Below are positions 7,013 through 44,373 of a stretch of DNA of 64,000 nt, piece by piece (the first letter of the stretch is position 1; each line of letters opens with the position of its first letter). The stretch lies in NCBI GenBank assembly GCA_003169695.1, contig PNAS01000034.1, positions 96,202 through 160,201 on the forward strand. The letters run 5' to 3'. Position numbers and translations under genes: made by a program. The notes under the pieces were generated by a model. It was not told the DNA's origin and did not search any database. It saw nothing but the letters and a program-made list of their open reading frames with translations. This stretch comes from Spartobacteria bacterium. Its GTDB lineage: Bacteria > Verrucomicrobiota > Verrucomicrobiia > Chthoniobacterales > UBA10450.

Positions 7013-7028
7013 GTCACAATCAGGTGAC
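7013..7028. promoter_or_regulatory. Candidate PhoB site upstream of phoB
   Basis: GTCAC at 7013-7017 and its inverse GTGAC at 7024-7028 begin 11 bp apart, about 56 bp before the phoB ATG. Classical Pho boxes use TGTCA direct repeats with an 11-bp period; here the second half-site is inverted, as it also is upstream of pstS2. It would fit autoregulation of phoBR. Confidence 0.4.
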
Positions 7029-7083
7029 GTTCTTTGACAAGCGGCGTGCGGGTCGGCAAGCTCGGCGAAAGCGCCACGCCGCC

Positions 7084-7770
7084 ATGTCGAGCACAAGAAT
7101 CCTGATCATCGAGGACGAACAAGACGTGATCGATCTGCTTACGCTGAATCTACGGAAAGCCGGCGGGTTTGTGGTGAGCACCGCCACCGAGGGCGCGGCC
7201 GGGCTGCGCAAAGCCCGTGAAGAAATGCCGGCCTTGATCATTCTCGACCTGATGTTGCCCAAAATGCCTGGACTCGAAATTTGCAAAGTCCTGAAGACGG
7301 ATGCCGCCACGCGAAAGATCCCGATCATCATGCTGACCGCGAAAGCGGAGGAAATCGATCGCATCGTCGGTCTGGAATTTGGGGCGGACGATTACGTCAC
7401 GAAACCGTTCAGTCCGCGCGAGCTGATTCTTCGCGTGAACGCGATCTTGCGCCGCGGCAAAGGTGAGGTGGCGGAAGAGAAAATGTCGATCGGCGCGATC
7501 ACGCTCGACCCGGCGCGGCACCACGTTGCCGTCGGCGGAAAACCAGTGCGGCTGACCAGTGTCGAATTCAAACTCCTCAGCATGCTCATGCAGCGGCAGG
7601 GTCGTGTGCAGGCACGCGATCGCCTGCTGAATGAAGTTTGGGGTTACGAAAGTTTGATCGACACTCGCACCGTGGATACACACGTGCGCCGGTTGCGCAA
7701 AAAACTAGGTAAAGCCGCGGTAGCCATCGAGACCGTGCGCGGTTTCGGCTATCGCATCCGGGAAAGCTAA
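7084..7770 (+). CDS. phoB: Phosphate-type response regulator PhoB
   Basis: The OmpR-class regulator has a receiver domain (residues 1-115) with acidic pocket ED, phospho-acceptor Asp in LIILDLMLPKMPG, Thr in IMLTAKAEE and Lys in DDYVTKPFSPREL, and a C-terminal winged helix (residues about 135-225) ending VDTHVRRLRKKLG and TVRGFGYRIRES. The ATG at 7084 is chosen over an upstream frame start because it begins directly with the receiver (MSSTRILIIEDE). It overlaps no gene and is followed 6 bp later by phoR and then pstCAB-phoU. This context supports the phosphate assignment rather than another OmpR-type role. Confidence 0.92.
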   Translation: MSSTRILIIEDEQDVIDLLTLNLRKAGGFVVSTATEGAAGLRKAREEMPALIILDLMLPKMPGLEICKVLKTDAATRKIPIIMLTAKAEEIDRIVGLEFGADDYVTKPFSPRELILRVNAILRRGKGEVAEEKMSIGAITLDPARHHVAVGGKPVRLTSVEFKLLSMLMQRQGRVQARDRLLNEVWGYESLIDTRTVDTHVRRLRKKLGKAAVAIETVRGFGYRIRES

Positions 7771-7776
7771 ACGCTG

Positions 7777-9051
7777 ATGGGCTGGCTTGCGTTTTGCGGG
7801 CTTATCGCGGTCGTGTTTGCGACCGCACTCGCAGTTTGGCGACGATGGATTGCTCCTTGGAAGGATGTGGAAGAGTTGTCCCAGGCCATTGTCGACAGGC
7901 GTCCCCCGCGAAAATTTCTGATCAGCGCCAATCCGCAATCACGGAGCATCGGACTCGCGCTCGAGATGTTGGTCGATCGTCAACGCGAGCTCGAAGAACG
8001 CTTTCGCGAGGGCGAATCTAGCGTTCAAGCGGTCTTCGGCGCGATGCTCGATGGTCTCGTTGTCGTGGACGATCGGCGCCGGGTTCGCATGATGAATCGT
8101 GAATTTCGGCGTGCGTTTGGACTGGAGGAAGCGGAGCCGGGCGAGCCACTCCTCGAGATGATCCGGCACGCATCGGTCGATCGCCTCGTCCTGGAAGCGA
8201 TTCGCGTGCGGGAGCCTCGACGGGAATCAATCCAAATGTCACGCGGCCCGAGCGAGGGTCGCGAAATGGAGGTCAGCGCAGTGCCGCTCGGCGAGAATTC
8301 AGTGCAAACGGAAGGGGCGGTGGTTCTTTTCCATGATGTCACCCAATTGCGGCAGATGGAAGAAATAAGGCGCGATTTTGTCGCGAACGTTTCGCACGAA
8401 CTGCGCACGCCGTTGTCGATCTTCCGGGGTTATCTCGAGACTTTGCTGGACGATCCCCACCAGCCGCCCGGCGAATTGCTCCGCATTCTCGAAGTCATGG
8501 AACGCCACTCCGATCGTTTGTACGCGCTGGTGGAAGATGTGCTGAGTCTGGCACGACTCGAATCGCCGGCGGCCGAGCTTGATTTATCCGAGATCAGTTT
8601 GGCGGAGTTCTTGCAGGAGATCCTGCGCGATTGGGAAAAGCGGCTTGAGGTGAAGCAGCTCAAGTCACGTCTCGATGTCCCATTGGATTTGCCGAAGCTG
8701 GAAGCGGATGAGAGCCGACTTCAGGAAATCATTTACAATCTTCTCGATAACGCCGTGAAATACTCTCAACCGAGCGGCGTGATTACCTTGCGTGCTGCCC
8801 TCGAAGGCGACGGGGTGCGCATAAGTGTTTCCGATGAAGGCATTGGAATTCGCGAGAACGATCTGCCGCGCATCTTCGAGCGTTTCTATCGTGCCGACAA
8901 AGCGCGGAGCCGCGAACTGGGCGGAACGGGATTGGGCCTCTCGATCGTGAAGCACATTGCGCAACTGCATGGCGGCACTGCCCAAGCGCAAAGTGAGCCG
9001 GGTAAAGGCACGACGATCAGCGTGGTTCTTCCTCTAGAGCAGAATAGTTGA
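7777..9051 (+). CDS. phoR: Phosphate-type sensor histidine kinase PhoR
   Basis: One N-terminal membrane helix (GWLAFCGLIAVVFATALAVW) is followed by a linker and a PAS-like domain (residues about 85-190, MLDGLVVVDDRRRVRMMN). HisKA carries the phosphorylated His in FVANVSHELRTPLSIF, and the HATPase has N, G1 and G2 boxes: EIIYNLLDNAVKYS, DEGIGI and ELGGTGLGLSIVKH. There is no extracytoplasmic sensor domain, as in known PhoR, which senses phosphate through the Pst-PhoU complex. It starts 6 bp after phoB and precedes pstC by 91 bp. Confidence 0.92.
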   Translation: MGWLAFCGLIAVVFATALAVWRRWIAPWKDVEELSQAIVDRRPPRKFLISANPQSRSIGLALEMLVDRQRELEERFREGESSVQAVFGAMLDGLVVVDDRRRVRMMNREFRRAFGLEEAEPGEPLLEMIRHASVDRLVLEAIRVREPRRESIQMSRGPSEGREMEVSAVPLGENSVQTEGAVVLFHDVTQLRQMEEIRRDFVANVSHELRTPLSIFRGYLETLLDDPHQPPGELLRILEVMERHSDRLYALVEDVLSLARLESPAAELDLSEISLAEFLQEILRDWEKRLEVKQLKSRLDVPLDLPKLEADESRLQEIIYNLLDNAVKYSQPSGVITLRAALEGDGVRISVSDEGIGIRENDLPRIFERFYRADKARSRELGGTGLGLSIVKHIAQLHGGTAQAQSEPGKGTTISVVLPLEQNS

Positions 9052-9105
9052 GCCGGTTCTTCCGCTCGTCGCATCTTCTCGGATCGGAGGAGTCCGCGTC
9101 CGTCC

Positions 9106-9121
9106 GTCACAGAAACGTCAC
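9106..9121 (+). promoter_or_regulatory. Candidate Pho box upstream of pstC1
   Basis: GTCAC occurs at 9106-9110 and 9117-9121, a direct repeat with exactly the 11-bp period of the E. coli Pho box (TGTCA repeats). It lies 22 bp before the annotated pstC ATG, so the real transcript start or translation start may be slightly downstream. It suggests that pstCAB-phoU has its own PhoB-dependent promoter separate from phoBR. Confidence 0.55.
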
Positions 9122-9142
9122 ACAAAAGGAATTGCCGGGCGG

Positions 9143-10762
9143 ATGACGTTTCCGCGAATGTTGCCTCCCATGGAAGGCGTTGCCGATCCCCGCACACTCA
9201 TCCCGGCGCGCACCTCATCGCGGCGGGCGCAAGCGGCGCTCGAGCAAGGCATCAAAGCGTTCTTTGGCGGCAATGCGCTTGTCGCCGTCATCGTGCTCGC
9301 GTTGATCACGATTTTCCTTTTCCGTGAAGGTTTCGGATTCTTCGGTCAAAACCTGGCAAACCTTCGCCTCTATCGGCAAGCCGGTCTCGAATACGTCGAT
9401 ATCATTCGCGGCGTTTCGGCAAAACATGAGGCACTCTCGCGCAGTCTGAGCGAGATCCGGCTGCGCGAAGTGCGAACCATGGAAAAACGAAATGCGCCAG
9501 TCGAAGAGATCAACGCCGCGCTTGCGCCCTTCGATCAATTCGCGACCGCTTTCAGCGATACGGCCGAGAATCTGCACGGCATCGTCTCCGACTTGACCGA
9601 TCAGGCGAGCGCGTTGAAGGAAGCACTTTTCGCGCGCGCCGAATTATTGGCACAACGCAATCAACTGGAACACAGCGCCGCCCAGGCCGCCGCGGCAAAA
9701 ATCATCGTTCCCGAAGTCGATCGCACCGCCGCTCTGGCGAGCCTGCGGGAAGGCTCTGCGAATTTTGAGTCCGTCAGCGCCGAGATGACGGCGCAGCTTT
9801 ACAGTCTCCTGGCACAGGCCCCGCCGTTGCCGGACCCCGCGGCGCAGAAAGCCTTCGAACAATGGAAAACGCGGACGCGCGAATACCTCGCCGGATTGCC
9901 GGCGGCTTCGGAAAAACTGCGGACCTGGTCGCCCGACGCGCCGATCCCGTGGTATCGCTCGATCAGTTCTTTTCTTTTTGGTCGTGAATGGGTGACGGCA
10001 AGTTTCTGGCAGGATTGGTACGGGATTATTCCTTTGCTGGTGGGATCGATTCTCGTCTCAATCGTCGCGTTGATCATCGCGGTGCCGCTCGGAGTCGCCT
10101 CGGCGGTCTACGTGAGTGAAATCGCGTCGAGTCACGAGAAAAGGCTGATCAAGCCATACATCGAATTCATTTCCGCCATCCCGTCGGTGGTCCTCGGCTT
10201 TTTTGGAATCGCGGTCGTCGGGCAAGCGGTGCGGACCGCGTCGCAATCCTCGTTTTTCAAGTGGGTCTCATTTTTTCCAATCAGCGAGCGGCTGAATATT
10301 TTTACCGCGGGTTGTCTGCTCGCCCTCATGGCGGTGCCGACGATTTTCACCCTTTCGGAAGATGCCCTGCGCAATGTCCCACGCGGGTTCAAGGAGGCCT
10401 CCTACGCCTTGGGCGCGAACCGGCTGCAAACGATCGGGCGCGTTCTCGTGCCCGCTTCGTTGTCCGGCATCGTCTCGGCGGTGCTTCTCGGGCTGGGCCG
10501 CGTCATCGGCGAAACCATGGTCGTCCTGCTCTGCGCCGGAAACCGGATCGCGATTCCGGATTTCACTCAAGGGCTAGGCTCGATCTTTCAGCCCGTGCAC
10601 ACGATGACCGGAATTATCGCGCAGGAAATGGGCGAGGTAGTGCGGGGGAGTACGCATTACCGCGCGCTTTTTATGGTGGGCCTTGTGCTCTTCACCATCA
10701 CGCTCGGGATCAATTACCTCGCGCAAAAATTTGTCACCCGTTACCGGATGAGCATCGGATGA
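9143..10762 (+). CDS. pstC: Phosphate ABC permease PstC with large extracytoplasmic insertion
   Basis: At 539 residues this is far longer than a typical PstC of about 300-330. TM1 (residues about 43-65, [16 protein letters not shown]) is followed by some 200 residues of mainly helical sequence ([19 protein letters not shown]... [20 protein letters not shown]) before the permease core begins at [24 protein letters not shown]. The EAA-type loop is [23 protein letters not shown], and LGRVIGETM is the usual PstC signature. PstC pairs with PstA to form the phosphate channel in the inner membrane. A start at the internal ATG 9170 is equally possible. pstA begins 1 bp after its stop. Confidence 0.9.
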
Positions 10763-10763
10763 C

Positions 10764-11789
10764 ATGATCGCCATTGCTTCCAACTCTCGCCGGGTCCGCC
10801 GAATCGAGGGCGTCATTTTCTGGCTCCTCCGTCTGGCGACCTATTTCATCCTCGCCTGCGCGACCTACATCTTTCTCGACATCGGCATCAAAGGGAGCCG
10901 GACCGTTTTCACTTCCACGCCACCCTTCATCAACCTCCCGTTTCTGACCGAGCCGCCCCAAACGCTTTACGTCTTCGCCTACGAAGGAAAGAAGATGACG
11001 CTGAGCGACCGGCAATTCCGTCAGTGGAAAGTCGAGCACGCCGGAACTGAGGTGGAAGCGTCCAGCATCGCGTATTCCGCGGGCGGGATCTGGCCCTGCA
11101 TCGTCGGGACGGCGCTGCTCGTGATCGGATCGATGGCGCTCGCGCTCGGCATTGGGATCAGCAGCGCGATCTACCTGAGCGAATACAGCCGGAATGGCCG
11201 CTTGATTCGCCTCGTGCGCATCGCGATTCTTAATCTCGCGGGCGTACCCTCGATTGTCTTTGGGCTCTTCGGTTTCGGATTGTTCGTGATCTTCTTTGGC
11301 TGGAACGTCTCGCTCATCGCGGGCTGGTTCACGCTCGGATTGATGGTGCTGCCGGCGATCATCACCGCGAGCGAAGAATCATTGCGCGCCGTGCCCCAGG
11401 GATTGCGTGAGGGATCACTCGCCTTGGGCGCGAGCAAATGGCAGACGATCCGCAAGAACGTCCTGCCGTACGCGATGCCCGGAATTCTGACCTCGTCCAT
11501 TCTTGGCATCGCGCGCGTCGCGGGCGAGACCGCGCCGATCATGTTCACCGCGGCCTACGCCATGAAAGATGAAATGCCGTGGCAGGTCGCCCACTGGACC
11601 GATTTCTTTTTCCAGGGAGTGATGGCGCTGCCCTATCACATTTATGTTGTCAGTTCGAAGATCCCGCAGAACGAGTACACCGAGCGCGTCCAATATGGCA
11701 GCGCGTTTGTCTTCCTTTTCCTCGTGATGCTGATTGCACTCACGTCGATTGTCTTGCGAGAACGAAGCCGGAGCCGTCTATCATGGTAA
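10764..11789 (+). CDS. pstA: Phosphate ABC permease PstA
   Basis: This 341-residue permease has TM1 ([20 protein letters not shown]), then about 75 extracytoplasmic residues that include [17 protein letters not shown], then the BPD_transp_1 core with [20 protein letters not shown] as the coupling loop and [15 protein letters not shown] as the PstA signature. The extra segment after TM1 matches in position the larger insertion in the partner PstC. The start is 1 bp after pstC and the stop overlaps pstB by 7 bp, indicating translational coupling. Confidence 0.92.
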
Positions 11790-12622
11790 GCGTTGCCGAA
11801 ATGCCCGAAATAACCTCACCGATCATCGTCAACCAGCCAGAGCCGATTCCGAAATCGGAGATCGAGCGCGGCATGATCGAGATCGAGCAGCTCGATTTCA
11901 AGTACGGCGCGCATCAGGTCCTGCACGACGTTACTTTGAGCATTCCCGCGCGAGCGGTCACCGCTTTCATCGGACCTTCAGGATGCGGAAAAACCACGCT
12001 GCTGCGTTGCCTTAATCGCATGAACGATCTCATTGATAGCGCGCACATCACGCGAGGCTCGATCCGGATCGAAGGCATCGACATCAACGCGCCCGGCGTG
12101 GACGTCGTCGATCTCCGGCGGCGAGTCGGCATGGTCTTTCAGAAATCGAATCCATTTCCGAAATCGATTTTCGACAACGTCGCCTACGGCTTGCGCATCG
12201 CCGGAGTCACGAAGCGAACGCTGATCGACGAGGCGGTCGAGAAAAGTCTGCGTTCCTCGGCGCTCTGGGAAGAAGTGAAAGATCGGCTGCACGTGAGCGG
12301 CTACGGACTTTCGGGCGGCCAGCAGCAGCGTCTTTGCATCGCGCGCGCCCTGGCGGTCGAACCGGAGATCGTACTGATGGACGAACCGTGTTCCGCGCTC
12401 GATCCGATCGCGACGGCGAAGGTTGAGGAATTGATCCGTCAACTCAAGGAGCAATACACTATTGTGATCGTGACCCACAACATGCAGCAGGCTGGCCGCT
12501 GTTCCGATCACACTGCCTTCTTCTATCTTGGGCGCCTGATCGAGTTCGACGGCACCGCGAAAATATTTTCGAATCCTGCCCAGCGGCAAACGGAGGAATA
12601 CATCACCGGCCGTTTCGGTTGA
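11783..12622 (+). CDS. pstB: Phosphate ABC transporter ATPase PstB
   Basis: The 279-residue ATPase powers phosphate import. Walker A is GPSGCGKTT, the Q-loop lies in [14 protein letters not shown], the signature is [16 protein letters not shown], Walker B is EIVLMDEP and the switch His is in [11 protein letters not shown]. The sequence ends ITGRFG as PstB proteins usually do. The ATG at 11783 overlaps the end of pstA by 7 bp. phoU follows after 16 bp. Confidence 0.95.
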
Positions 12623-12638
12623 TGGATTGGAGCATTCC

Positions 12639-13331
12639 ATGATCGCACCCAGACACATTCTTGGAACTTTCGACGAAGCGCTGGCTACGCTGCGCAACAA
12701 CGTCCTCATGATGTCGAGCCTGACCGAACGCAGCCTCGACCGCGCGATCACCGGCTTGCTCCAGCGGGACGACGAGATCTGCGCGATCGCGATCGCCGAC
12801 GACGAGGAAATCGATCAACTCGAAAAGCAGGTCGACAAGGACGGCATCGATCTGCTGCTGCGTTTTCAACCGGTTGCGTCCGATCTGCGTCGCGTGGTTT
12901 CAGCAATGAAGCTCTCATCCAATCTCGAGCGCATGGCGGACCAGGGGACGAACATCGCGCGACGGGCGCGCAAACTGAATCAACATCCGGCGTTGCCCGA
13001 AACGGAATTGATCACGCCGATGTACACCCACGCGATGGCGATGTTTAAGGATTCCATCGATGCCTACGTGCGCGAGGACGTCCAGCTCGCTCGCGCGGTC
13101 GTTCCACGAGACCAGGCCCTAGATGAGATGAATGCATCGGCCGGCCGGCATCTCATCGAACGGATGGCGGAAGATCCTGCCCAACTGCGCGGCTACCTGA
13201 ACCTGATATTTATTTCGCGCTGCCTCGAACGCGTCGGCGATCACGCCACCAACATGGCGGAAGATGCCGTTTACGCGGCGGCGGCCGAGGACATTCGGCA
13301 TCAGCATTTGCCCGCCGTAGCAAACGAATAG
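12639..13331 (+). CDS. phoU: Phosphate signalling protein PhoU
   Basis: The protein has the two PhoU three-helix repeats with the metal-binding motif in each (MKLSSNLERMADQGTNIARR and IFISRCLERVGDHATNMAED). PhoU connects Pst activity with PhoR and prevents kinase activity when phosphate is plentiful. The ATG at 12639 has GGAG upstream at 12629-12632; a TTG at 12627 would add four residues. A second PhoU at about 38 kb shares the same motifs and belongs to the other pst operon. Confidence 0.93.
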   Translation: MIAPRHILGTFDEALATLRNNVLMMSSLTERSLDRAITGLLQRDDEICAIAIADDEEIDQLEKQVDKDGIDLLLRFQPVASDLRRVVSAMKLSSNLERMADQGTNIARRARKLNQHPALPETELITPMYTHAMAMFKDSIDAYVREDVQLARAVVPRDQALDEMNASAGRHLIERMAEDPAQLRGYLNLIFISRCLERVGDHATNMAEDAVYAAAAEDIRHQHLPAVANE

Positions 13332-13370
13332 AGGCAGACTGACGTCGCTGGATGGGGAAAGACGCGCTAG

Positions 13371-14303
13371 TTAATTCAAGAGCGCGACAGTCCGGTTCCT
13401 GGTCGAGGGACAACGAAGCTTCGTCAGCTCCCACTCGGAAAAATATTGGGAAATCCGCCGGGCAAATTGTGGGGGGCGCTCCGCGTAGAACCGCTCACCG
13501 AGCGCGATGGCCGTGTGCTCGAGTTCCTTCTCCCTGGAATCGACGAGCGCATTGAGAATGCGGTCTCCCTGTTTGCGGACGGATCCAATCGAGGAGAGGC
13601 GTTCGGCCACAAAGGCGAGGTCGTGGACCTGACCAAGATACTGGCCGATCGCTTTCAGTTCGTCGTTCAGTTCCCCAAAGACAGCAGGCGCCAATGGCCG
13701 CAAGATCCGGAGCTGGCACTCAAGCTCCTTCGCCCGCTTTCGAAATGTGTGAAGATTTTTCGTGCTCGTTTTTTCGATCGCGGCCTTGAGAGCGTTGCGG
13801 CCCCGCTTGTAAGTCTTCTGTACGCATTTGCGCATTTGCTTGCCGCACAGATCGTCCAACGGCCAGGACCGGATACGATCCAGGGTCTGGGTCAGCCTTT
13901 GTTTCGCTTCCTCGGGCCATTCCGAAAACGCCGCCAGAAAACTATCCAGCTCGAAGGCGAGAAGTTCCTCGGTCTCTCGAAAGCTGCGTTTCTTGCCCCG
14001 CGCGAATTCGCGGAGCTGCCGCACCGTCTGCAGACGAACCTCGGCATCGCGTACTTCGGAAATGAGCTGCCCGACTTTACGCAAACACCGGTCCTCGCGT
14101 TTCCAAACGTCAGGATCAATTTCGCCGGCGGCCAGGCGGAGCGCGGACCGCGCCTTCTTCAGATGCTTGCGGGTTTCGTGAACGGGCGAGCCTTTCCCGT
14201 TTTGTTCGGCGCTGCTCGCACGGATCGCGCCTTCTATCTGGTGGCAGACAATTCTCTGAATGCCATCTCCGACCGTTTCATCCTGCCGCAACTCGTAGCT
14301 CAT
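13371..14303 (-). CDS. CHAD domain protein
   Basis: This 310-residue all-helical protein shows the CHAD (conserved histidine alpha-helical domain) pattern: VHETRKHLKKARSALRL near the N-terminus, EVRDAEVRLQTVRQL, and the second repeat LHTFRKRAKELECQLRIL followed by GQYLGQVHDLAFVAERL. CHAD domains bind polyphosphate through conserved His, Arg and Lys residues. It follows the CYTH gene by 14 bp on the same strand. Placement between phoU and pstS suggests a role in polyphosphate handling under phosphate control. The 3' end converges on phoU with a 40-bp gap. Confidence 0.88.
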   Translation of the reverse strand: MSYELRQDETVGDGIQRIVCHQIEGAIRASSAEQNGKGSPVHETRKHLKKARSALRLAAGEIDPDVWKREDRCLRKVGQLISEVRDAEVRLQTVRQLREFARGKKRSFRETEELLAFELDSFLAAFSEWPEEAKQRLTQTLDRIRSWPLDDLCGKQMRKCVQKTYKRGRNALKAAIEKTSTKNLHTFRKRAKELECQLRILRPLAPAVFGELNDELKAIGQYLGQVHDLAFVAERLSSIGSVRKQGDRILNALVDSREKELEHTAIALGERFYAERPPQFARRISQYFSEWELTKLRCPSTRNRTVALLN

Positions 14304-14830: not shown

Positions 14831-14902
14831 TGCGAGATCTTCTTTTTGTTTCGGATCATCTCCGGGACCCGTCAAAATCTTTCGTGTTACAATTTCATGG
14901 CA

Positions 14903-14991
14903 GGTGGATCGTGCGCTCCGCGCGCGATGCCAAAAAGTCTCCGGCGGGGCCGCACAATAGAAACATCGCGCGATGGAGGGCGCGATCCACC
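14903..14991. repeat. Imperfect inverted repeat with 55-bp spacer
   Basis: The 17-base arms at 14903-14919 (GGTGGATCGTGCGCTCC) and 14975-14991 (GGAGGGCGCGATCCACC) pair at 15 of 17 positions. The interior has no open frame of interest. This may be a small non-autonomous element or REP pair upstream of the CYTH gene. Confidence 0.45.
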
Positions 14992-15041
14992 GTTGCGAGT
15001 CGCAAGAGCAGGCAGCGCAGATCGGCGACACGCAAGGTTCT

Positions 15042-15254
15042 TTATCCGGGCAAGGCGGTCCAAGCCTCGACCAGCGCAAAAACCGGCCAGGCGGATATCA
15101 ATATGATGACGCCGAAGAGAAATAATTCGGCGCAGAAACCTTGGTGCGTTTCCTCCCTCAAGAATTCTCGGCTAATGTCCCGGAAGGATGGACGCCCCTC
15201 TGAGGGAGAGATACGATTCGGTGAACCTTCATCGCCGGGACGTTCCCCTATCAT
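15042..15254 (-). CDS. Possible small membrane protein, 70 aa
   Basis: The frame from ATG 15254 gives a hydrophilic, acidic and basic N-terminal half (GRPSFRDISREFLREETHQG) followed by one strongly hydrophobic helix (AELFLFGVIILISAWPVFAL) and a short tail. Sequence of this kind is unlikely by chance, but no homologous family is recognised and the ribosome site is weak. It lies on the minus strand upstream of the CYTH gene, with about 210 bp containing an inverted repeat in between. Confidence 0.4.
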   Translation of the reverse strand: MIGERPGDEGSPNRISPSEGRPSFRDISREFLREETHQGFCAELFLFGVIILISAWPVFALVEAWTALPG

Positions 15255-15459
15255 CGGCTGAAAATTGTAGTCGAGCCGAGGGGAGGGCAGCTTGCGTCGA
15301 AGACTCACCCGGTCCTGCCGGCAGCTTGTCGGAAGAGTGCTGATTCTAGGCGTTGGTTTCATGATTTGATTGCGGCGTGCTTTGGTTTTTAAGGAATTTT
15401 TCTGCCTGTCTGATAACGCACCCGAAGAGTTCAGTCAGGTTACGAAACGTGAAGATTCG

Positions 15460-15475
15460 GTGACACGAGCGTGAC
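15460..15475 (-). promoter_or_regulatory. Candidate Pho box, reverse orientation
   Basis: GTGAC at 15460-15464 and at 15471-15475 is a direct repeat with an 11-bp period; read on the minus strand the half-sites are GTCAC. It is about 170 bp upstream of pstS1 and could serve either pstS1 or the small minus-strand frame at 15254. Confidence 0.4.
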
Positions 15476-15564
15476 ACAGTCCCGCACTCGTTAGGCCGGA
15501 ATCTCTGCTCGCCGCCACCCGCTCCAATCCGGCGGAAACGCCAGCCCATCCGGGCAGACGATTC

Positions 15565-15591
15565 GTCACGCGATTGTCACTTGGCCGTCGC
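15565..15591 (+). promoter_or_regulatory. Candidate Pho box upstream of pstS1, three half-sites
   Basis: GTCAC at 15565, GTCAC at 15576 and GTCGC at 15587 follow each other with an exact 11-bp period, 52 to 78 bp before the pstS ATG. This is the best plus-strand match in the window to the TGTCA direct-repeat architecture bound by PhoB. Confidence 0.6.
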
Positions 15592-15642
15592 CGCAATGTG
15601 ACGGATGGGATATGGAGAAAAACCATTCGGAATCCATCTCAT

Positions 15643-16461
15643 ATGAAAACGATATTCGTCACTCTCCTGTCCGCCTTCGGGCTCATCTTCACTTCCACCG
15701 CAGTGCACGCGGACCGTCTGGTCATCAAAGGATCGGACACTTTGGGCGCGAAATTGGTGCCGCAATTAGCTGAGCAATTCAAAACACAAAGCCCCGACGC
15801 GACATTCGATATCGCGGCGGAAGGCTCGACCACCGGATTCGCGGCCCTGATTGATGGCACTGCGCAGATTGGGATGGCTAGCCGCCCGGCAAAGCCGGCG
15901 GAGATCGCCGCGGCGAATGCGAAAGGCGTCGCACTGAAGGAGACGATCGTGGCCTATGACGGCGTGGCTGTGATTGTGAATGCCGCGAACCCAATCAAGA
16001 GCCTGACGAAGAAACAGGTCGAACAAATCTTCACCGGCGAAGTGTCTGATTGGAGCGGCGTCGGTGGTTCCGGGGGCGCGATCTCGATCTATACGCGTAA
16101 CACTTCTTCGGGGACTTATTCGGAGTTCAAGGAGCTCGCGATGAAGAAGCGGGATTATGCTCCCGCCGCGCAAAAGATGGCGGGCAACGAACAGATCGCG
16201 GCCGAAGTAGGAAAAAACGCGAACGGCGTTGGTTACGTTGGCCTCGCTTACGTCAAGGCCGAGGGAATCAAAGTCGTCCCGATTGATGGCCAAGTGCCGT
16301 CAGTCGAGAGCGTGCAAAAGAAAACTTATCCGTACGCACGGCCAACGTTTTTCTATACAAACGGCGAACCGACGGGCCTGGCGAAGGCATTCGTTGAATT
16401 CACGCTCAGCGCGGCTGGTCAGAAGATTGTGGCCGGCGCAGGCTTCGTCCCAATTCAGTGA
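15643..16461 (+). CDS. pstS: Phosphate-binding protein PstS (short type)
   Basis: The periplasmic receptor for the Pst importer. A signal peptide ([23 protein letters not shown]) is followed by the PBP-like fold: [59 protein letters not shown] (Ser/Thr phosphate loop) and [10 protein letters not shown]. At 272 residues it is the short SphX/PstS type, unlike the longer PstS at 41-42 kb. Pst permease genes lie upstream across the CYTH-CHAD insertion. Its 3' end overlaps the end of arsC on the other strand by 56 bp. Confidence 0.9.
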
Positions 16462-18212: not shown

Positions 18213-18557
18213 CTAACCTTGGGCCTTGTTCGGAACGAGAAGCTGAAGGTCCTCGATGAGGGAATCGATCTTGCGCAGATCTTTGCGCCGGCCCTTCTCT
18301 GGCTTCAACTTGCGTTTGCGCACGAGGATTGTCAGATCGCGAAGCTGATGCAACCGCTCGCGCGATAACTCTTCGGCGGGCTTGCTTGATTCGAGCGCCG
18401 CCCGGCTCTCGGCCAGACCAATCTCCAGGCGGGCGGCGTAGGCGCGGACCGTGGCCCGCAGATCGCGACGAAGTTTTTCCAATTCCGATTCCAGCAGTCT
18501 CGCCGGAGAGGTCTCCCTAGATTTGGCGCGTGCGCGCTTATATTTGATCGTTGTCAT
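18213..18557 (-). CDS. Small coiled-coil hypothetical protein
   Basis: This 114-residue protein is highly charged and predicted helical throughout, with heptad-like runs such as LESELEKLRRDLRATVRAYAARLE and LHQLRDLTILVRKRKLKPEKG. It has no membrane segment or signal. Its ATG overlaps the stop of the LpxH-like gene (ATGA) and the L,D-transpeptidase gene follows after 3 bp, so it is surely translated with its neighbours. No family is recognised. Confidence 0.75.
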   Translation of the reverse strand: MTTIKYKRARAKSRETSPARLLESELEKLRRDLRATVRAYAARLEIGLAESRAALESSKPAEELSRERLHQLRDLTILVRKRKLKPEKGRRKDLRKIDSLIEDLQLLVPNKAQG

Positions 18558-19399
18558 AATGAGGCTTCAGCTAACTCCGGTTTTTCCATGTCCGCGGCGG
18601 ACGGCGATTGGAATGGATTGAAATTCAGCAGTTCAATCGTGCCGTCGAAATTCTCGACGAGAGCCGAGCAGGTCTCGACCCAATCGCCGCAGTTATAGTA
18701 GGTGACCGCGCCGACTTGCCGGATTCCGGCGCTGTGAATGTGGCCGCACAGGACGGCGTCGACCGCGTATCTCTCCGCGTATCGCACGATCGCTTTTTCA
18801 AATTCGCCGATGAAATTGACGGCGTCTTTGACGCGCTTCTTCGCATACGCGCTGAGCGACCAATAGCCGAGGCCGAAGCGGCGGCGCACGAAATTGATGA
18901 GTGGATTCAGCGAAAGCAAAAACTGGTAACCAAGGTCGCCGGCGAACGCGAGCCAGCGCGCATTTTGCACGACGGCATCCAGCTCATGGCCGTGAATAAT
19001 CAGAATGCGTCGCCCATCGGCGGTGGTGTGGACGAAATGTTTTGCGATCGCGATATGGCCGTAGTAACCGCAAAAGCCTCCGAGGAATTCGTCGTGATTG
19101 CCGGGGATGTAAACGATGCGCGTGCCTTTGCGCGATTTGCGCAGGAGTTTTTGGATGACGTCGTTGTGCTGCTGCGGCCAAAAAATTCCACGCCGCATCT
19201 GCCAGACATCGATCAGATCGCCGACGATGTAGAGCGTCTCGAAATCGTGATCGCGCAGGAATTCCAGGAACGCTCCGGCGTTGCTGCTACGCGTCCCAAG
19301 GTGCAGGTCGGAAATCCAAGCCGTGCGCAGGCTGCGGAGCGCCGGCGCCCTAACGACGCGGAGGTTCCGGATGCGGGTTGGTGGATCGAGCGTCTGCAT
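18554..19399 (-). CDS. UDP-2,3-diacylglucosamine pyrophosphatase-like metallophosphoesterase
   Basis: The calcineurin-type motifs are in order: SDLHLG (D-x-H), VGDLIDVW (GD-x-x-D), GNHDEFLG (GNHD), IHGHELD and CGHIHSAG. The family resembles LpxH/LpxG, which cleave UDP-2,3-diacylglucosamine in lipid A synthesis; many paralogues of about 280 residues exist whose substrate has not been shown. It is the first gene of a five-gene minus-strand operon ending with arsC. The link between lipid A, peptidoglycan and arsenic genes is odd and may only reflect a shared promoter. Confidence 0.85.
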   Translation of the reverse strand: MQTLDPPTRIRNLRVVRAPALRSLRTAWISDLHLGTRSSNAGAFLEFLRDHDFETLYIVGDLIDVWQMRRGIFWPQQHNDVIQKLLRKSRKGTRIVYIPGNHDEFLGGFCGYYGHIAIAKHFVHTTADGRRILIIHGHELDAVVQNARWLAFAGDLGYQFLLSLNPLINFVRRRFGLGYWSLSAYAKKRVKDAVNFIGEFEKAIVRYAERYAVDAVLCGHIHSAGIRQVGAVTYYNCGDWVETCSALVENFDGTIELLNFNPFQSPSAADMEKPELAEASL

Positions 19400-19625
19400 T
19401 TTTCCCCTCCGAAAAATAGCAGGCGCGGCATCCTTCCGACAAAGTGAGTTTTGTTACGTTTCTGTGTCGAAAATGGTTGGAATTCTTGCGGGACGCGACT
19501 GCTCCGAAGAATCCAGGAACCACCATAACGGACTTGACGCGCCGATTAGGGCTCTCGTTGATGCCCGAGCGATCCGAATTCAGGTGAGGCATTGACGATA
19601 AGCTTGGGCTCATTAACGTTAGATC

Positions 19626-37907: not shown

Positions 37908-37999
37908 TAACCTAACCCAATAACCGGTGACCGTCGGAGGACGGTAGGAAGCACGACGCGAATTATGTCGGCGCTCTCTCAGCGCAATCGGCTGGGAGA

Positions 38000-38680
38000 T
38001 CAGAAGGAACTGCCGGCGTGTCGAATGTCTTCTGCCGCTGTGGCGTAAACGGCCTCTTCACCGATGTTCTTGGCGTGATCGCCGACGCGTTCGAGATGGC
38101 GCGCGATAAACAGCAAGTTCAGATAATCGCGGATTCGGTCCGGCTGCTTCGCCATGCTGATGGTGAGGTTATCCGCTATATCAAGGTTCATTTGATCAAT
38201 CTCGCTGTCGCGGACTCTAAGTGATCGGGCGAGCGCGACATCCCCATCGGCGTAGGCACGGACGCTATCCCGAAAGAGGCCGGTCGCTTCCATAAACATC
38301 GGACCGAGCGCGCCTGCTTCATCGAGTTCCGGTTCCATACTCAGGTTGCGCGAGCGGCGCGCAATCTTGACGGCTTGATCGCCGATCCGTTCCAAATTGC
38401 TGCTCAGCTTCATGGCCGACACCACCTGGCGCAGATCAGACGCCACCGGCTGATAACGCAGGAGAAGGTCAATACCATTTTGATCGACGGTTTTTTCGAG
38501 CGAATTGATCTCTTGTTCGTCCGAGATGGTGATAGCGCACAATTGCGGATCGCGATCGAAGAGAGAGGTCATGGCGTTCTGGAGATTGCGGTCGGTCAGG
38601 CTCGCCATCATCAAGACATCGGCGCGGAGCGAATCCAAGGCTGCGTCGAAATCGTGAAGGATGTGCCGGGATTTGACCAT
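38000..38680 (-). CDS. phoU: Second phosphate signalling protein PhoU
   Basis: The ATG at 38680 starts MVKSRHILHDFDAALDSL, like PhoU1. The two metal-binding motifs are MKLSSNLERIGDQAVKIARR and LFIARHLERVGDHAKNIGEE. It closely resembles PhoU1 throughout, including LLLRxQPVASDLRxVVSAMKLSSNLER. It is the last gene of the second pst operon, 4 bp after pstB2. The longer open frame overlaps pstB and is not used. Confidence 0.92.
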   Translation of the reverse strand: MVKSRHILHDFDAALDSLRADVLMMASLTDRNLQNAMTSLFDRDPQLCAITISDEQEINSLEKTVDQNGIDLLLRYQPVASDLRQVVSAMKLSSNLERIGDQAVKIARRSRNLSMEPELDEAGALGPMFMEATGLFRDSVRAYADGDVALARSLRVRDSEIDQMNLDIADNLTISMAKQPDRIRDYLNLLFIARHLERVGDHAKNIGEEAVYATAAEDIRHAGSSF

Positions 38681-38684
38681 GCGC

Positions 38685-39530
38685 TCAACCGAATCGTCCG
38701 GTGATGTAATCCTCGGTCTTCTTTTCCTTCGGTTGACTGAAAAGTGTTTTCGTATCGTTGAACTCAATCAACTTGCCCACATAAAAAAAGGCGGTCTTGT
38801 CCGAAACCCGGCTCGCCTGCTGCATGTTGTGGGTGACAATCACAATCGTGTAATTGGATTTCAGCACACCGATCAGTTCCTCGATCTTCATCGTCGCGAT
38901 TGGATCCAACGCGGACGCCGGTTCGTCCATTAGCACGACTTCCGGCTCAACCGCGATCGCACGAGCGATGCAAAGGCGTTGCTGTTGACCCCCTGAGAGG
39001 CTCATGCCCGGCTTCTTGAGGTCGTCCTTTACTTCGTCCCAAAGCGCAGCCATCCGCAGCGACTTTTCCAATCGCTCGTCAAGCAAGCTGCGCTTGCGCA
39101 GTCCGTTGAGTTTGAGACCAACCGTAACATTCTCAGCGATGGACATGGTCGGGAAAGGGTTCGATTTCTGGAAAACCATTCCGACGCGGCGACGCACCGC
39201 TGCAGGATCAACACCTGCCCCGTAGAGGTCCTCCCCTTGGAATAGGACTTTCCCTTCAACGCGCGTGTGCGGCATAAGCTCGTGCATTCGATTCAGGCAG
39301 CGCAAAAACGTGGATTTGCCACATCCACTGGGACCGATAATCGCCGTAATCGTCTTCGAGGGAATATCAATTGTGACGTCGTTGATCGCCTGCTTCTGTC
39401 CGTACCAAATCGACAAGTTCTGCACTTTGAACGCGGGGACTTCCGTCGGCGCGACGGTCGGTAAGTGCGTCCCTTGATCAGTGACCTGCTGTGACATGGA
39501 GTTTGGTGATTGCACGGCTGTTTCGATCAT
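38685..39530 (-). CDS. pstB: Phosphate ABC transporter ATPase PstB (second copy)
   Basis: Walker [11 protein letters not shown]-loop [14 protein letters not shown], signature [15 protein letters not shown], Walker [13 protein letters not shown] and switch His [10 protein letters not shown] are complete; the end ITGRFG is shared with PstB1. The ATG at 39530 has AAAGAGG about 7 bases upstream and overlaps no Pst protein; another ATG at 39554 would overlap pstA2. It belongs to the second operon. Confidence 0.94.
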
Positions 39531-39543
39531 GCAGCAGCCTCTT

Positions 39544-40404
39544 TCATAGAACACGAAATGCTGGGTTACGAGTGAGAAGGCGGACCACTATGTTGATAAA
39601 AAAGATCCCGACGATAAGCACCAGCGCACCGGCCCAGGCCTGCCGGTGCCAATCTTCGTAAGGCGAGATGGCGTAGGTGAAGATTTGTAGCGGCAGGGCT
39701 GCGATCGGTTCGCGAAGGCTGTGATTCCAGAAGCGGTTCCCGAATGCGGTGAAGAGTAGCGGTGCCGTTTCACCGGCGACACGCGCGAGCGCCAGGAGGA
39801 TGCCGGTGACGATTCCTTTGGAAGCAGTCTTCATCACTATGTGCACAATTGTTTTCCAACGGCTGATGCCGAGGGCGAGCGCAGCCTCTCGATAGCCGTT
39901 GGGCACGAGCAGGAGCACTTCCTCCGTCGTACGCATGATCAGCGGAATCATAATCAGACCGAGCGAGAGTCCCCCGGCGTAGGCCGAGAAGCTTTTGAAT
40001 CTCAGAACGACGAGGCCGTAGACGACCACGCCCCAAATGATGGATGGGACGCCGTTCAATACGTCCGCGATAAAACGCAGCATCCTGTTGGAGCGTGCCG
40101 ACCCGTATTCGGCAAGATACACCCCGCCAAGCACGCCCACCGGCACTCCGATCAAAGCAGCGATCCCGAGCAACTCCGCGGTGCCAACGATTGCGTTTAC
40201 CATACCGCCGCCAGCTTCACCCACCGGCTTCGGCAATTGAGTGAAAAAGCTAAGATTGACCGCACCCGCACCGCTACGCACCAGATGAAAGAAGACGAAC
40301 CCGAGCGGCGCAACTACGAGGATAGCGGCGATAAAACTCAGCGCCGACACGATCGCACTTTTGATCGTGCGCCACCTCCGATTATTGCCGGGCGTCGATT
40401 GCAT
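39544..40404 (-). CDS. pstA: Phosphate ABC permease PstA (second copy)
   Basis: This 286-residue PstA has the usual size: TM1 [23 protein letters not shown], a short periplasmic loop, then the permease core with [23 protein letters not shown] and [21 protein letters not shown]. It lacks the extra domain seen in PstA1, so the two systems differ in build. It begins 2 bp after pstC2. Confidence 0.93.
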
Positions 40405-40406
40405 TC

Positions 40407-41402
40407 TTATTGGACCGCACGCGTAGTCGTCGCGCCGGCCATGGTCTTAATGAGAACCTGGGCGATCAGGTTCGCGAGAATCGTGATGCCAAAAAGCACC
40501 AGCCCCACTTCGAACAAGGCCTGCAGGTACAGGTCAGTAGTCGCTTCCGTAAATTCATTGGCGATCACACTGGCCAGCGTGTAGCCAGGCGCGAAAAGCG
40601 ATGCTTTGATTTGCGGGGTATTACCGATCACCATCGTGACGGCCATCGTTTCGCCCAGGGCGCGCCCAAGGCCGAGGATAACCGCGCCCGCAAGCCCTTT
40701 CTTTGCATAACTCAGAACCGCAATGCGCGTCACTTCCCAGCGGGTTGCGCCCAGCGCATACGCTGCTTCGCGCTGCAAGTTGGGGACGCTGCGGAGAATC
40801 TCACGCGACACCGAGGTGATTATTGGCAGAATCATGATTGCGATGATTATGCCGCCCGCCAACATGCTGATGCCGTAGATCGGTCCCTCGAAAAAAGGCG
40901 TCCATCCGAAGAGCGTCTTGAGCAGAGGGAACGGATGAGCTTTCAGCCATGGGATCATTACGAAAATACCCCAGAGGCCGAGAATGACGCTCGGAATCGC
41001 TGCCAGCATTTCGATCAGCGAAACGAGCGGTTGGCGAACCCAAAGCGGTGCGAGCTCGGTAAGATAAACGGCAGTGGCGATGCTTAACGGGACGGCAATG
41101 ATCAAGGCGATGAGCGACGAAACGATGGTGCCATAAATAAACGGCAGCGCGCCGTACTGCTCGGCGACCGGATCCCAAGTCGAGGTTGTGAGGAAATGAA
41201 AACCGAACTTCGCTATTGCCAGCTGTGAGCCTCGCGCGAGCTGCCAACCCACCAAGAAAACCAGAGCGATTACCGCCAGCGCCATCGCTAGCGTGAGCCA
41301 CTCGAATGCGCGGTCGCCAAAACGCGAGGGTCGCGACATTTGCGTCGCGAGGCTCGGTTGCTCGGTTTCGCCGGGAATACTGGGGCGTGTGACCACATTC
41401 AT
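40407..41402 (-). CDS. pstC: Phosphate ABC permease PstC (second copy)
   Basis: A normal-size PstC of 331 residues: TM1 LTLAMALAVIALVFLVGWQL, then [64 protein letters not shown] and LGLGRALGETMAVTMVIGN. It contains no large insertion, in contrast to PstC1. It lies 35 bp downstream of pstS2 and 2 bp upstream of pstA2. Confidence 0.94.
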   Translation of the reverse strand: MNVVTRPSIPGETEQPSLATQMSRPSRFGDRAFEWLTLAMALAVIALVFLVGWQLARGSQLAIAKFGFHFLTTSTWDPVAEQYGALPFIYGTIVSSLIALIIAVPLSIATAVYLTELAPLWVRQPLVSLIEMLAAIPSVILGLWGIFVMIPWLKAHPFPLLKTLFGWTPFFEGPIYGISMLAGGIIIAIMILPIITSVSREILRSVPNLQREAAYALGATRWEVTRIAVLSYAKKGLAGAVILGLGRALGETMAVTMVIGNTPQIKASLFAPGYTLASVIANEFTEATTDLYLQALFEVGLVLFGITILANLIAQVLIKTMAGATTTRAVQ

Positions 41403-41437
41403 AACCAGCTAGCTCCGGGCCGGAGATTCCGAAGCGG

Positions 41438-42457
41438 TCACATCTTGATTTCGTCAATTCGCTGCAAGACGCGCTTCTGCAGGTTTTCTGGGAGCGGCGC
41501 ATATTGGAGATCCTGCGCCATCTTCTCGCCGTCCTTGGCTGCCCACTTCAAGAATTCCACGAGCTTCTTGCCTTTCGCTGGGTCTTTCTGCTTCTCGTAA
41601 ACGAGTAACCATGTCGCGCCGGCGATCGGGTAAGCATCTTTGCCTGGAGCGTTCGTGATCGAGAAACGAAAGTCGTCTGGAATTTGAGCAGTTGCCATCG
41701 CAGCGGTGATTGAGGCCAGCGATGCTTTCACGAATTCGCCGTCGGCATTCTTCACGTCCGCGTACGGCATCTTGTTTTGCACAGCATAAATCAGCTCGAC
41801 GTAGCCGAGCGCCCCCGACGTTTGTTTGATTTGACCCGCCACACCCTCGTTGCCTTTACCGCCAATGCCGGTGGGCCAGTTTACCGAGGTATTGGTTCCG
41901 ACTTTCTGTTTCCACTCCGGACTGACCTTGCTCAGGTAATCAGTCCAAATGTAGGTCGTGCCGCTGCCATCGGAACGATGCACAACAATGATTTCCTGGT
42001 CGGGAAGTTTCACGCCGGGATTCAAGGCGCCAATCTTCGGATCACTCCATTTCTTGATCTGCCCGAGAAAGATTCCGGCGATCGTTTCACCGTCGAACTT
42101 AAGCGCGGGATCCCCTGGCAGGTTGTAAGTAACAACGTCGGCACCCGCGACGGTTGGGATGTGCAGAAGTTTGCTGGGCGCTTTTGAAAGATTGTCGTCA
42201 CTCATCGGCCCGTCGGAGGCGCCGAAATCAACGGTTTGCTCGAGGATTTGCTTTTGCCCTCCACCGGAGCCGATCGATTGATAATTGAAGCGAACTGACT
42301 GATCGACCTTTGCGTATTCGTCGAACCACTTTGAGTAGATCGGATACGGGAAAGTAGCGCCCGCTCCGTTGATCATCATCTGGGCCGAGACACTTCTTGC
42401 GCAGGCGACCAACAGGCCGAACGCTAAAAGTTTGCCAAGGATTTTCTGGAATTTCAT
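41438..42457 (-). CDS. pstS: Phosphate-binding protein PstS (long type)
   Basis: The ATG at 42457 begins a signal peptide (KILGKLLAFGLLVACARSVSA). The 339-residue protein then shows classical PstS motifs: INGAGATFPYPIYSKWFDEY, FNYQSIGSGGGQKQI, VDFGASDGPMSDD, VVHRSDGSGTTYIWTDYLS and GALGYVELIYA. This is the E. coli-like type and belongs to a different subgroup from the short PstS at 15.6 kb. A candidate PhoB site lies about 170 bp upstream, after the porin. Confidence 0.94.
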   Translation of the reverse strand: MKFQKILGKLLAFGLLVACARSVSAQMMINGAGATFPYPIYSKWFDEYAKVDQSVRFNYQSIGSGGGQKQILEQTVDFGASDGPMSDDNLSKAPSKLLHIPTVAGADVVTYNLPGDPALKFDGETIAGIFLGQIKKWSDPKIGALNPGVKLPDQEIIVVHRSDGSGTTYIWTDYLSKVSPEWKQKVGTNTSVNWPTGIGGKGNEGVAGQIKQTSGALGYVELIYAVQNKMPYADVKNADGEFVKASLASITAAMATAQIPDDFRFSITNAPGKDAYPIAGATWLLVYEKQKDPAKGKKLVEFLKWAAKDGEKMAQDLQYAPLPENLQKRVLQRIDEIKM

Positions 42458-42753
42458 AGGTGTTTGATTATTGCGCGTAGCGAGAATTGGGGGGACAAAG
42501 ATTAACGTTTCGGAGTTTGGATTGTTCATATGGTTGTGTGGGATTCCCGACCGCCGGTGGGTGCTTTTGATCTGCTGATTTCTTCCTCAGAGTGCACGGG
42601 TGCCCGGGACGGAGTCAAAAATTTTAGTGTCACGTTTCCGTGACGGAAAATTGCACGAGTTACAGCCGGCCGCTTTAGAGAGGGAAGGCGTCCGCAGACG
42701 GTTCGGACATCTGCGGAATGCATTTCTTAACCTAACCTGCGGCTGTAATTTAT
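42458..42753. other. Control region between porin and pstS2
   Basis: No gene is recognised in these 296 bp. It contains the inverted GTCAC/GTGAC site described separately and separates the porin from pstS2, so pstSCAB-phoU2 probably has its own promoter here. Confidence 0.45.
42629..42644. promoter_or_regulatory. Candidate PhoB site upstream of pstS2
   Basis: GTCAC at 42629-42633 and GTGAC at 42640-42644 start 11 bp apart, forming an inverted pair, the same geometry as at phoB. It is about 170 bp before the pstS2 ATG, farther than the other sites. Confidence 0.4.
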
Positions 42754-44235
42754 TCAGAATTTGAAATTCAGATCGGCCTGAAATAGTTGGTACTTGTCGA
42801 GGGCGTTAATCCCGATGTCGCCGACGCCGCCAGTGCCTAGGTTGCGGTCTGCGCGATGTCCGTATCCATAGGTGAGGTTGGCCGTAACCGCGTCCGAAAC
42901 CGCATACCCCAACGTGACTGCTACGCCTTCGATATTGACCCGACTATCAAAGAGGTCGGAGTCCACCAAATTGGGATCAAGCGCATATTGCTCGGTATGC
43001 TGCCAGAAAGCGCTGAGAGCCCAGTCGTTCTTGGCCTTAATCTTACCGATCCCGAAGCCGATTTGATAGGCATAGCGCTGGTCTCCTTCGTCGGGATGGC
43101 CCGCGGCGGCTGCGCGCTCGTCTCCATCCAGGTTGACGGCAAAATCGCCGAAGATTCGCATCGGTATCTTCCCAATCTTCCACCCGAACTCCGCCGGCAT
43201 CTCGAATACCAGAAGATTGTTCACTCCGGTTTGGTTCGGCACGACGGTCGTTGTACCTCTCCTAAATGCCGGATCGCCGACGAATGTCGTGTTAAATGTG
43301 TCGCCTGCTCCAGTGTAGTTATAAACAGTCGGCGCAAACTGGAAATACATGTCCTTGGTGAAGTTGAACTTCGCGCCCACCTGCCAACCGAGTAGGAATG
43401 CATCGGTGTTAGGAACCCCTTGCGGCGATGGCCCGATCGGATTCTCCGGGTTTGCATCGTCGTAGACGAACTGCCCAAAGTTGACGAAAACATCGATCGT
43501 CATGCCCGAAGGGGCGGCCGCGATGACTTCCTTGCCATCTTTCGACTCCACCGATTGCGAAGGCCCGCTACCGCCCAGCGCGAAGGTATGCTTCCATTGT
43601 TCGGATAGACCTTCGGGATTGATGTCGGCGTCCCACACCATGGACGTGGTGACGAACGGATTTTGCAGCTTCCCCGCTATAAGTGTGATGTCCTTGAAGC
43701 CTTTGTACCCCAGGTAGACTTGACCGACGTTGATACCGTCACTTCCTTTTGCGAAAGGCCCGCCGCCGCCTGGTGAACTGGACGACGTGTCATCTCCGAA
43801 GGTAACGTTCGTACTGCGCGGACTTTGACTTGTTTCCAACCGGATGTTAAAAAACCAATCGTCGGCCAGCGTGCCGCGCAACCCTAGGCGCAGACGGTAT
43901 CGTTCACGGTTTCGCTGTTGAGTGTCATGCGGTCCGTTGATTAGGTCGTTGTTACCGGTTTCCCCGTTACGAACCTCATAACGGACGCGCGCATCTCCGT
44001 AGAGCTCGAGCTCGGTGAGAGGTGTCGAAAGCTTCAATTTTGATGCGCTGCTTGTAGTTGGGGGCGGATTTGTCTTTGCCAAGTCAACTCGAACTTCAGC
44101 CGCATCTTTTTCGGTGATGATGTGTTTGCGCACGAGTAGATCAAGCAAGGCGCTTGAGTCTTCGCCGTGTGCAGGCGGTGTGCTCAACACAAGGCTCGCC
44201 GCGAGCCCGACGAACATTAGTTTCCTACCGAACAT
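42754..44235 (-). CDS. Outer-membrane porin, putative phosphate-regulated
   Basis: A signal peptide (KLMFVGLAASLVLSTPPAHG) is followed by a short helix (LLDLLVRKHIITEKDAAEVRVDLAK) typical of the putative-porin family, then a beta-barrel with LYGDARVRYEVRNGE, RYRLRLGLRGTLADDWFFNIRLETSQSP and a closing strand KYQLFQADLNFKF that ends in Phe. The 493-residue protein is not closely like OprP, so the phosphate role rests on its place at the head of the pst operon and three Pho half-sites in front. The ribosome site AGGAG is 9 bases before the ATG. Confidence 0.85.
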   Translation of the reverse strand: MFGRKLMFVGLAASLVLSTPPAHGEDSSALLDLLVRKHIITEKDAAEVRVDLAKTNPPPTTSSASKLKLSTPLTELELYGDARVRYEVRNGETGNNDLINGPHDTQQRNRERYRLRLGLRGTLADDWFFNIRLETSQSPRSTNVTFGDDTSSSSPGGGGPFAKGSDGINVGQVYLGYKGFKDITLIAGKLQNPFVTTSMVWDADINPEGLSEQWKHTFALGGSGPSQSVESKDGKEVIAAAPSGMTIDVFVNFGQFVYDDANPENPIGPSPQGVPNTDAFLLGWQVGAKFNFTKDMYFQFAPTVYNYTGAGDTFNTTFVGDPAFRRGTTTVVPNQTGVNNLLVFEMPAEFGWKIGKIPMRIFGDFAVNLDGDERAAAAGHPDEGDQRYAYQIGFGIGKIKAKNDWALSAFWQHTEQYALDPNLVDSDLFDSRVNIEGVAVTLGYAVSDAVTANLTYGYGHRADRNLGTGGVGDIGINALDKYQLFQADLNFKF

Positions 44236-44346
44236 TATTTTATTTCTCCTGGTTTGTGGTTTGGCCGCGATGGGTTAAGCACGGCGAAATCATTTCGATT
44301 CGTCGCGGTCGTATTCTGACGACGGCTCGGAGGCTGACAGGCGATT

Positions 44347-44373
44347 GTTACAACCGTATGACGGCCAGGTGAC
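44347..44373 (-). promoter_or_regulatory. Candidate Pho box upstream of porin, three half-sites
   Basis: Read on the minus strand, GTCA starts at 44373, GTCA at 44362 and GTAAC at 44351, a perfect 11-bp period over three repeats, ending about 112 bp before the porin ATG. This is the same architecture as at pstS1 and supports control of the porin by PhoB. Confidence 0.55.

Follow-up and report, generated by a model that had tools for sequence, protein, structure and literature searches.

Candidate PhoB operators built from 11-bp units before the phosphate genes of a Verrucomicrobia genome

Genes for phosphate uptake and its control recur along the 64-kb window analysed here, that is, the whole stretch of contig PNAS01000034.1 from a Spartobacteria bacterium, and short GTCAC-like half-sites repeated every 11 base pairs (bp) precede several of them. 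Do these promoters share one operator, and is it the operator of PhoB? A sequence-only reading of this DNA had named five such promoters, those of phoB, pstC1, pstS1, pstS2 and a porin, and had suggested a common PhoB-type regulon. This suggestion is strongly supported in silico by an independent matrix, a 400-kb background, orthologous promoters and the DNA-contact residues of PhoB. The boxes are very probably PhoB operators (Pho boxes) in a local, tandem 11-bp version within a Verrucomicrobia genome, and what they would define is a Pho regulon of the ordinary kind, well supported, in a lineage that has been little studied.

When the sequence was re-read at each coordinate, all half-site positions reported earlier proved correct and the 11-bp period was kept; positions and register therefore stand, but several units differ from the exact GTCAC that had been claimed throughout. 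The units are GTCAC/GTGAC at the phoB site (7013/7024) and at pstS2 (42629/42640), GTCAC/GTCAC at pstC1 (9106/9117), and GTCAC/GTCAC/GTCGC at pstS1, where a fourth unit, GTGAC at 15598, lies in exact 11-bp register. On the minus strand, the porin site reads GTCAC/GTCAT/GTAAC with a further TTCAC unit upstream, and the units at 15460/15471 read GTGAC/GTGAC on the plus strand. Two-unit boxes precede pstC1, pstS2, a metallophosphoesterase gene and a CYTH gene and lie between tauE and phoB, and four-unit boxes precede the porin, pstS1 and a small, putative membrane protein. The boxes stand before phosphate genes and consist of 11-bp tandem units with a conserved 7-bp part, as a Pho box should; phoB and pstS2, taken alone, fit an inverted arrangement better. 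Five GTSAC-N6-GTSAC pairs were found in the window; 100 shuffled versions held 0.21 on average and never as many as five. The whole genome (a 4.14-Mb draft in 85 contigs) holds 12 such pairs, 5 of them in the window, itself 1.5% of the total length; a control with the reversed pattern gave 5 matches genome-wide. Among the 7 pairs outside the window, L003, L005, L006 and L012 fall within long open frames, while L001 and L002 sit between frames, the latter preceding a Crp-type regulator. Strict GT-N-AC pairs were rejected as a general motif, having missed the porin and many relatives, and an Escherichia coli matrix was used instead.

This matrix was made only from the 59 sites of an E. coli PhoB chromatin immunoprecipitation sequencing (ChIP-seq) table, because circularity had to be avoided; it is blind to the present genome, whereas the promoter set, being the choice of the earlier reading, is not. 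The scan covered about a tenth of the genome, and scores of at least 11 were taken as hits. Within the window the highest score belongs to pstC1 (15.45), followed by the porin (14.99 and 14.96), the site at 15459 (13.57), pstS2 (12.10), pstS1 (11.59) and the phoB site (11.18). Altogether 17 window positions are hits, and 9 of them fall within the 1563 bp of the named promoters, where 0.42 would be expected; dinucleotide shuffles of the whole window (n=100) gave a mean of 2.77 and a maximum of 8, and the reversed matrix gave none. Two of the 8 hits outside the named promoters are the boxes of the metallophosphoesterase (19452) and of CYTH (14885); the other six (536, 45018, 45586, 53161, 56286 and 60665) are unexplained. 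The density of hits is 5.76/kb in the named promoters against 0.055/kb in a 400-kb sample of two further contigs of this genome, an approximately 100-fold difference. The boxes thus match a matrix of PhoB-bound sites above background, and a matrix scan, which the sequence-only reading had itself put forward as a check, finds matches denser before phosphate genes than in the background. That the repeats match by chance is scarcely credible: other parts of the genome do reach equal scores, at the background density just given, but chance is contradicted by the shuffles, the reversed-matrix control, the genomic background and the conservation described below.

Orthologous upstream regions, this genome included, contain a hit in 10 of 14 cases for pstC, 13 of 19 for the porin, 24 of 52 for pstS2, 10 of 29 for the metallophosphoesterase, 5 of 17 for pstS1, 7 of 30 for phoB and 4 of 30 for CYTH, against 22 of 1110 control tiles (largely coding DNA, beginning 20 bp downstream of the gene start; ortholog scores were rounded to 0.1). 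Weak or partial matches (pstS1 L121-L132, porin L153-L162, pstC L250-L259), pstS2 L037-L038 and loci missing the gene start or upstream DNA were left out of these counts, and the loci used were 14 of 16 for pstC, 29 of 30 for the metallophosphoesterase, 17 of 18 for pstS1 and 19 of 20 for the porin. Within the order, 21 of 24 pstS2 regions (L013-L036) carry a hit. The family box consensus is approximately YGTCAC-N5-YGTAACA; relatives carry, among others, TGTCACACAAACGTAACA before pstS2, CGTCACACAAACGTAACA before pstC and TGCCACACAAACGTAACA before the metallophosphoesterase, and relative G007 has the four-unit TTCAC-GCAACT-GTCAC-TTGGCC-GCCAT-ACGTCC-GTAAC upstream of its porin. The pstS2 boxes of more distant families (L029, L035, L036) score best on the strand opposite the gene, and their direction relative to the gene may be flipped. 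Two patterns were also scanned over 58 genomes; they were drawn from the same promoters, and therefore only the controls and locations carry weight. They matched 54 and 48 times, and their reversed counterparts 21 and 13 times. Per scan, 29 matches lie at most 500 bp upstream of a query gene on the same strand, and a further 5 (of 54) and 8 (of 48) lie within 10 kb of one, the lists of query genes being incomplete as regards CYTH and the small gene. Four matches of the first pattern fall in this genome (the small gene, pstS1, the porin and C1:114114).

The sites of phoB and pstS2 had been described as inverted and thus non-classical. This is not well supported: the orthologs favour the tandem layout, although scoring within this genome slightly favours the inverted one. 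GTCAC and its reverse complement GTGAC are one base apart, so within one 11-bp register an inverted pair looks just like a tandem pair in which a single base has changed. If the two sites were true inverted operators, bound by a symmetrical dimer of PhoB or of another regulator, one could account for the higher scores of the inverted layout with a 4-bp gap, seen in this genome only (16.1 against 10.7 for phoB, 14.9 against 9.3 for pstS2), for its position just first of 36 layouts over six regions (summed log10 fractions of -25.9 against -25.4 for tandem), and for the GTGAC in the phoB box of relative G002. In the remaining four regions, two of them overlapping, the tandem layout nevertheless comes out ahead. 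The deciding base in 31 orthologous boxes of pstS2, pstC and the metallophosphoesterase is A in 23, C in 3 and T in 5, so that A or C accounts for 26 of 31 and the G of the inverted type for none; these boxes come from 48 non-own loci, 17 of which had no box by the expression used, the loci are related rather than independent, and one of the Ts (L245) comes from a spurious match. In all 13 family pstS2 orthologs with a hit, it lies on the gene strand; on the pstS2 box of this genome, the E. coli matrix gives 12.1 on the opposite strand and 8.98 on the gene strand. Furthermore, the phoB box of relative G003 is the tandem CGTCACCAAATTGTAACA, with a score of 17.0, GTGAC also occurs in one of the 59 E. 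coli PhoB sites, the tandem one at amn, and the DNA-binding domain of PhoB binds head to tail, according to the available part of the literature. True inversion is hence improbable. In the sites called inverted we probably see tandem repeats that differ at one base, best read as YGTCAC-N5-YGTAACA with A changed to G.

Which protein would bind these tandem boxes? The window holds a single phoB-phoR-pst cluster (phoB-phoR-pstC1-pstA1-pstB1-phoU1), and the product of its first gene combines a receiver with a winged-helix domain next to phoR. The name phoB is used because of best match and gene context. Among solved structures, its DNA-binding domain is matched best, by sequence, by E. coli PhoB 1gxp (E 3.6e-21), and the recognition helix reads RTVDTHVRRLRK here and RTVDVHIRRLRK in E. 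coli. With E. coli numbering placed by hand on the alignment and residue roles taken from the accessible part of the literature, the protein retains Thr194, Arg201, Arg219 and Trp184-Gly185, and both acidic positions, 177 and 191, are occupied by Asp; three of the four base-contact residues (Thr194, Val197, Arg201, Arg219) are kept. This supports the prediction of head-to-tail recognition and sigma contact as in E. coli. The OmpR/PhoB family is wide (a loose first look gave 16 to 89 candidates in 56 of 58 genomes), and PmrA likewise uses tandem repeats, as far as the available text describes it; another member of the family might therefore bind the boxes in place of this PhoB. We regard this as very improbable: at E 1e-60 or better this genome has a single match, located next to the boxes, the majority of the genes under a box serve phosphate functions, and the sites are picked up by the matrix of E. 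coli PhoB.

Several results weigh against the assignment of these boxes to PhoB. PhoB reaches 258.5 bits, below the NCBIfam PhoB equivalog cut-off of 296.2, although it is still the best of 98 models, and residue 197, a thymine-touching Val in E. coli according to the consulted part of the literature, is Thr here. The top score of the 400-kb sample, 17.49 at G000:C1:114113, exceeds any score in the window and has no phosphate gene near it. Most relatives lack a box upstream of phoB. The low count for CYTH points in the same direction; its gene starts were badly placed in that test, and therefore the count is not a fair one. Beyond the order only 3 of 28 pstS2 regions (L290-L317) contain a hit, and no GT-N-AC unit was found in the 330 bp examined at pstS2 loci L037-L038. 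For 20 of the 54 and 11 of the 48 pattern matches there is no query gene within 10 kb, and this genome contains no exact copy of the second pattern, the strict family consensus. As to the site at G000:C1:114113 itself, it carries a third unit and sits between frames; no credible gene or open reading frame (ORF) was found adjoining C1:114114.

Assuming that PhoB is the regulator, phosphate limitation would lead the PhoR/PnpS kinase to phosphorylate PhoB, whose molecules would then occupy neighbouring units head to tail and bring in RNA polymerase. The expected outcome would be activation of phosphate uptake (two Pst systems and the porin), phosphoester turnover and polyphosphate handling.

The box next to phoB requires separate consideration. 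A box does lie before phoB, as had been reported, but it is uncertain whether its target is phoB or the divergent tauE, which it could also serve. The E. coli matrix gives the plus reading 11.18 and the minus reading 9.35; it favours the phoB direction in this genome (G000) and in G002, and the tauE direction in G003. The minus reading CGTCACCTGATTGTGACA equals the family consensus except at one base; the consensus, like the copy in G003 (17.0), speaks for the divergent side, which in G000 and G002 is occupied by tauE. Of eight same-genus phoB loci, these two have tauE at most 1500 bp upstream, and both are boxed; the G003 locus is boxed and its contig ends 269 bp upstream; G006 reaches 11 by another alignment, which uses the TTTGACA of the presumed -35 element; the remaining four have neither tauE nor a score of 11. 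A core TTTGACA-N15-KGCAA before phoB is shared by the window (7033-7065) and relatives L044-L050, and TTTTGAC-N16-CGGCA occurs in several pstS2 orthologs, both noticed by eye; such cores are perhaps a lineage-typical promoter.

The pair at 15460/15471 had been taken as a reversed site of pstS1. This was wrong: the pair belongs to a four-unit minus-strand array before the gene of an unannotated protein of 106 amino acids (aa). CYTH was considered as the target of the array (15438-15476) and rejected, because relatives show a CYTH start near 14830 with its own box and the small gene between. Relatives of the 106-aa protein occur in 15 other loci among those examined, and by profile 67 of the order's 197 genomes contain the protein, every one of them from the same bacterial family as the window. 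Five members had no Pfam match (one weak, E 0.23) and four had no NCBIfam match. The array GTNAC-N6-GTNAC-N6-TTSAC-N5-GTAA, or one near it, lies 70-120 bp before the match start in 20 of the 30 best-match loci, and such an array is found in 7 of the 16 loci whose proteins stayed outside the profile; these counts were made by hand from the rows of the best-match loci, and the looser pattern was written after seeing the arrays and is therefore not blind. Scored by the E. coli matrix, the gene strand reaches 11 at no more than 3 of 16 small-gene loci. The family often has several matches per genome, four in this one, and the many weaker matches are probably paralogs. We tentatively suggest that this single-helix protein represents a lineage-restricted family whose best-scoring members mostly stand under a conserved four-unit Pho box, and that it might be a new component of the phosphate-starvation response, for example a small membrane protein tuning a Pst transporter or the PhoR kinase; we hold this to be possible, if somewhat less probable than its contrary.

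The metallophosphoesterase and the CYTH-CHAD pair are added candidate members of the predicted regulon. CYTH and CHAD domain types are linked to tri- and polyphosphate in the part of the literature available, and three same-genus relatives have similar CYTH boxes at -49, -68 and -62, with scores of 13.0, 9.4 and 13.6. Between the array and CYTH there is a dispersed repeat of ~92 bp (14899-14994), more copies of which occur in the 400 kb of the same genome (L216, L228, L232). Upstream of the porin, a matrix match of 14.05 (45586-45603, minus strand) lies just before an ORF of no known family. All coordinates are collected in table 1.

Table 1. Genes and putative PhoB boxes discussed in the text (window coordinates)
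Feature	Position	Strand	Remarks
tauE	6157-6918	-	divergent from phoB
Two-unit box between tauE and phoB	7012..7029	- (direction undecided)	minus reading CGTCACCTGATTGTGACA
phoB	7084..7770	+	ATG 7084 preferred over GTG 7024, which falls inside the box
phoR/pnpS-type sensor kinase	7777..9051	+	
pstC1 box	9105..9122	+	CGTCACAGAAACGTCACA; matrix 15.45
pstC1, pstA1, pstB1, phoU1	9143..13331	+	
CHAD	13371-14303	-	
CYTH	14318 to ~14830	-	PF01928 match just below cut-off
CYTH-CHAD box	14885..14902	-	TGCCATGAAATTGTAACA; score 12.45; ~55 bp before likely CYTH start
106-aa protein, unannotated	15042..15362	-	one hydrophobic C-terminal stretch (by eye)
Four-unit array	15438..15476	-	TGTCAC-GCTCG-TGTCAC-CGAATC-TTCAC-GTTTC-GTAACC; ~75 bp before ATG of 106-aa protein
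pstS1 box	15564..15604	+	GTCAC/GTCAC/GTCGC/GTGAC, 11-bp register
pstS1	15643..16461	+	
Metallophosphoesterase, LpxH-like, calcineurin-type	18554..19399	-	below NCBIfam cut-off
Metallophosphoesterase box	19452..19469	-	CGACACAGAAACGTAACA; matrix 11.08
pstS2 set: pstS2, two permease genes, ATPase gene, phoU gene (pstC2, pstA2, pstB2, phoU2)	38000..42529	-	
pstS2	41438-42529	-	
pstS2 box	42628..42645	-	gene-strand reading CGTCACGGAAACGTGACA
Outer-membrane porin	42754..44235	-	Porin_5; weak Porin_O_P
Porin box	44346..44385	-	four units, TTCAC-GCAACT-GTCAC-CTGGCC-GTCAT-ACGGTT-GTAAC
161-aa ORF	45079-45564	-	no known family; upstream of porin

What does such an operator offer? On the one hand, its consensus makes the phosphate regulon of a little-cultured lineage readable from genomes; on the other hand, it singles out genes whose function is not known as candidate members of the regulon, namely those of the small membrane protein and the metallophosphoesterase. 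In the open-licence literature, as far as its text was available, Pho box, PhoB and Verrucomicrobia came together only in PMC4796936, which does not concern this regulon, and an earlier description elsewhere is possible. The available part of that paper describes Pho boxes in plcP clusters and a PlcP homologue from a verrucomicrobium. The metallophosphoesterase of the window, a phosphoesterase gene with a Pho box, possibly resembles the PlcP of Pho-regulated lipid remodelling in role, the protein itself being only LpxH-like.

Compared with known systems, the boxes resemble the E. coli Pho box, as presented in the accessible part of PMC10294691, in their tandem units, their 11-bp register and their presence at phoB and pstS, and the unit variants TGTCAC, TTCAC and GTAAC also occur among the E. 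coli sites. Unlike in E. coli, the second unit is mostly GTAAC in the relatives, four-unit arrays stand at the small gene, the porin and pstS1, and other genes make up the set. The PhoP box of Streptomyces, in the portion of PMC4415409 available, is likewise built from 11-nucleotide direct repeat units and forms simple and complex operators; its units are GTTCACC, whereas those found here are YGTCACA.

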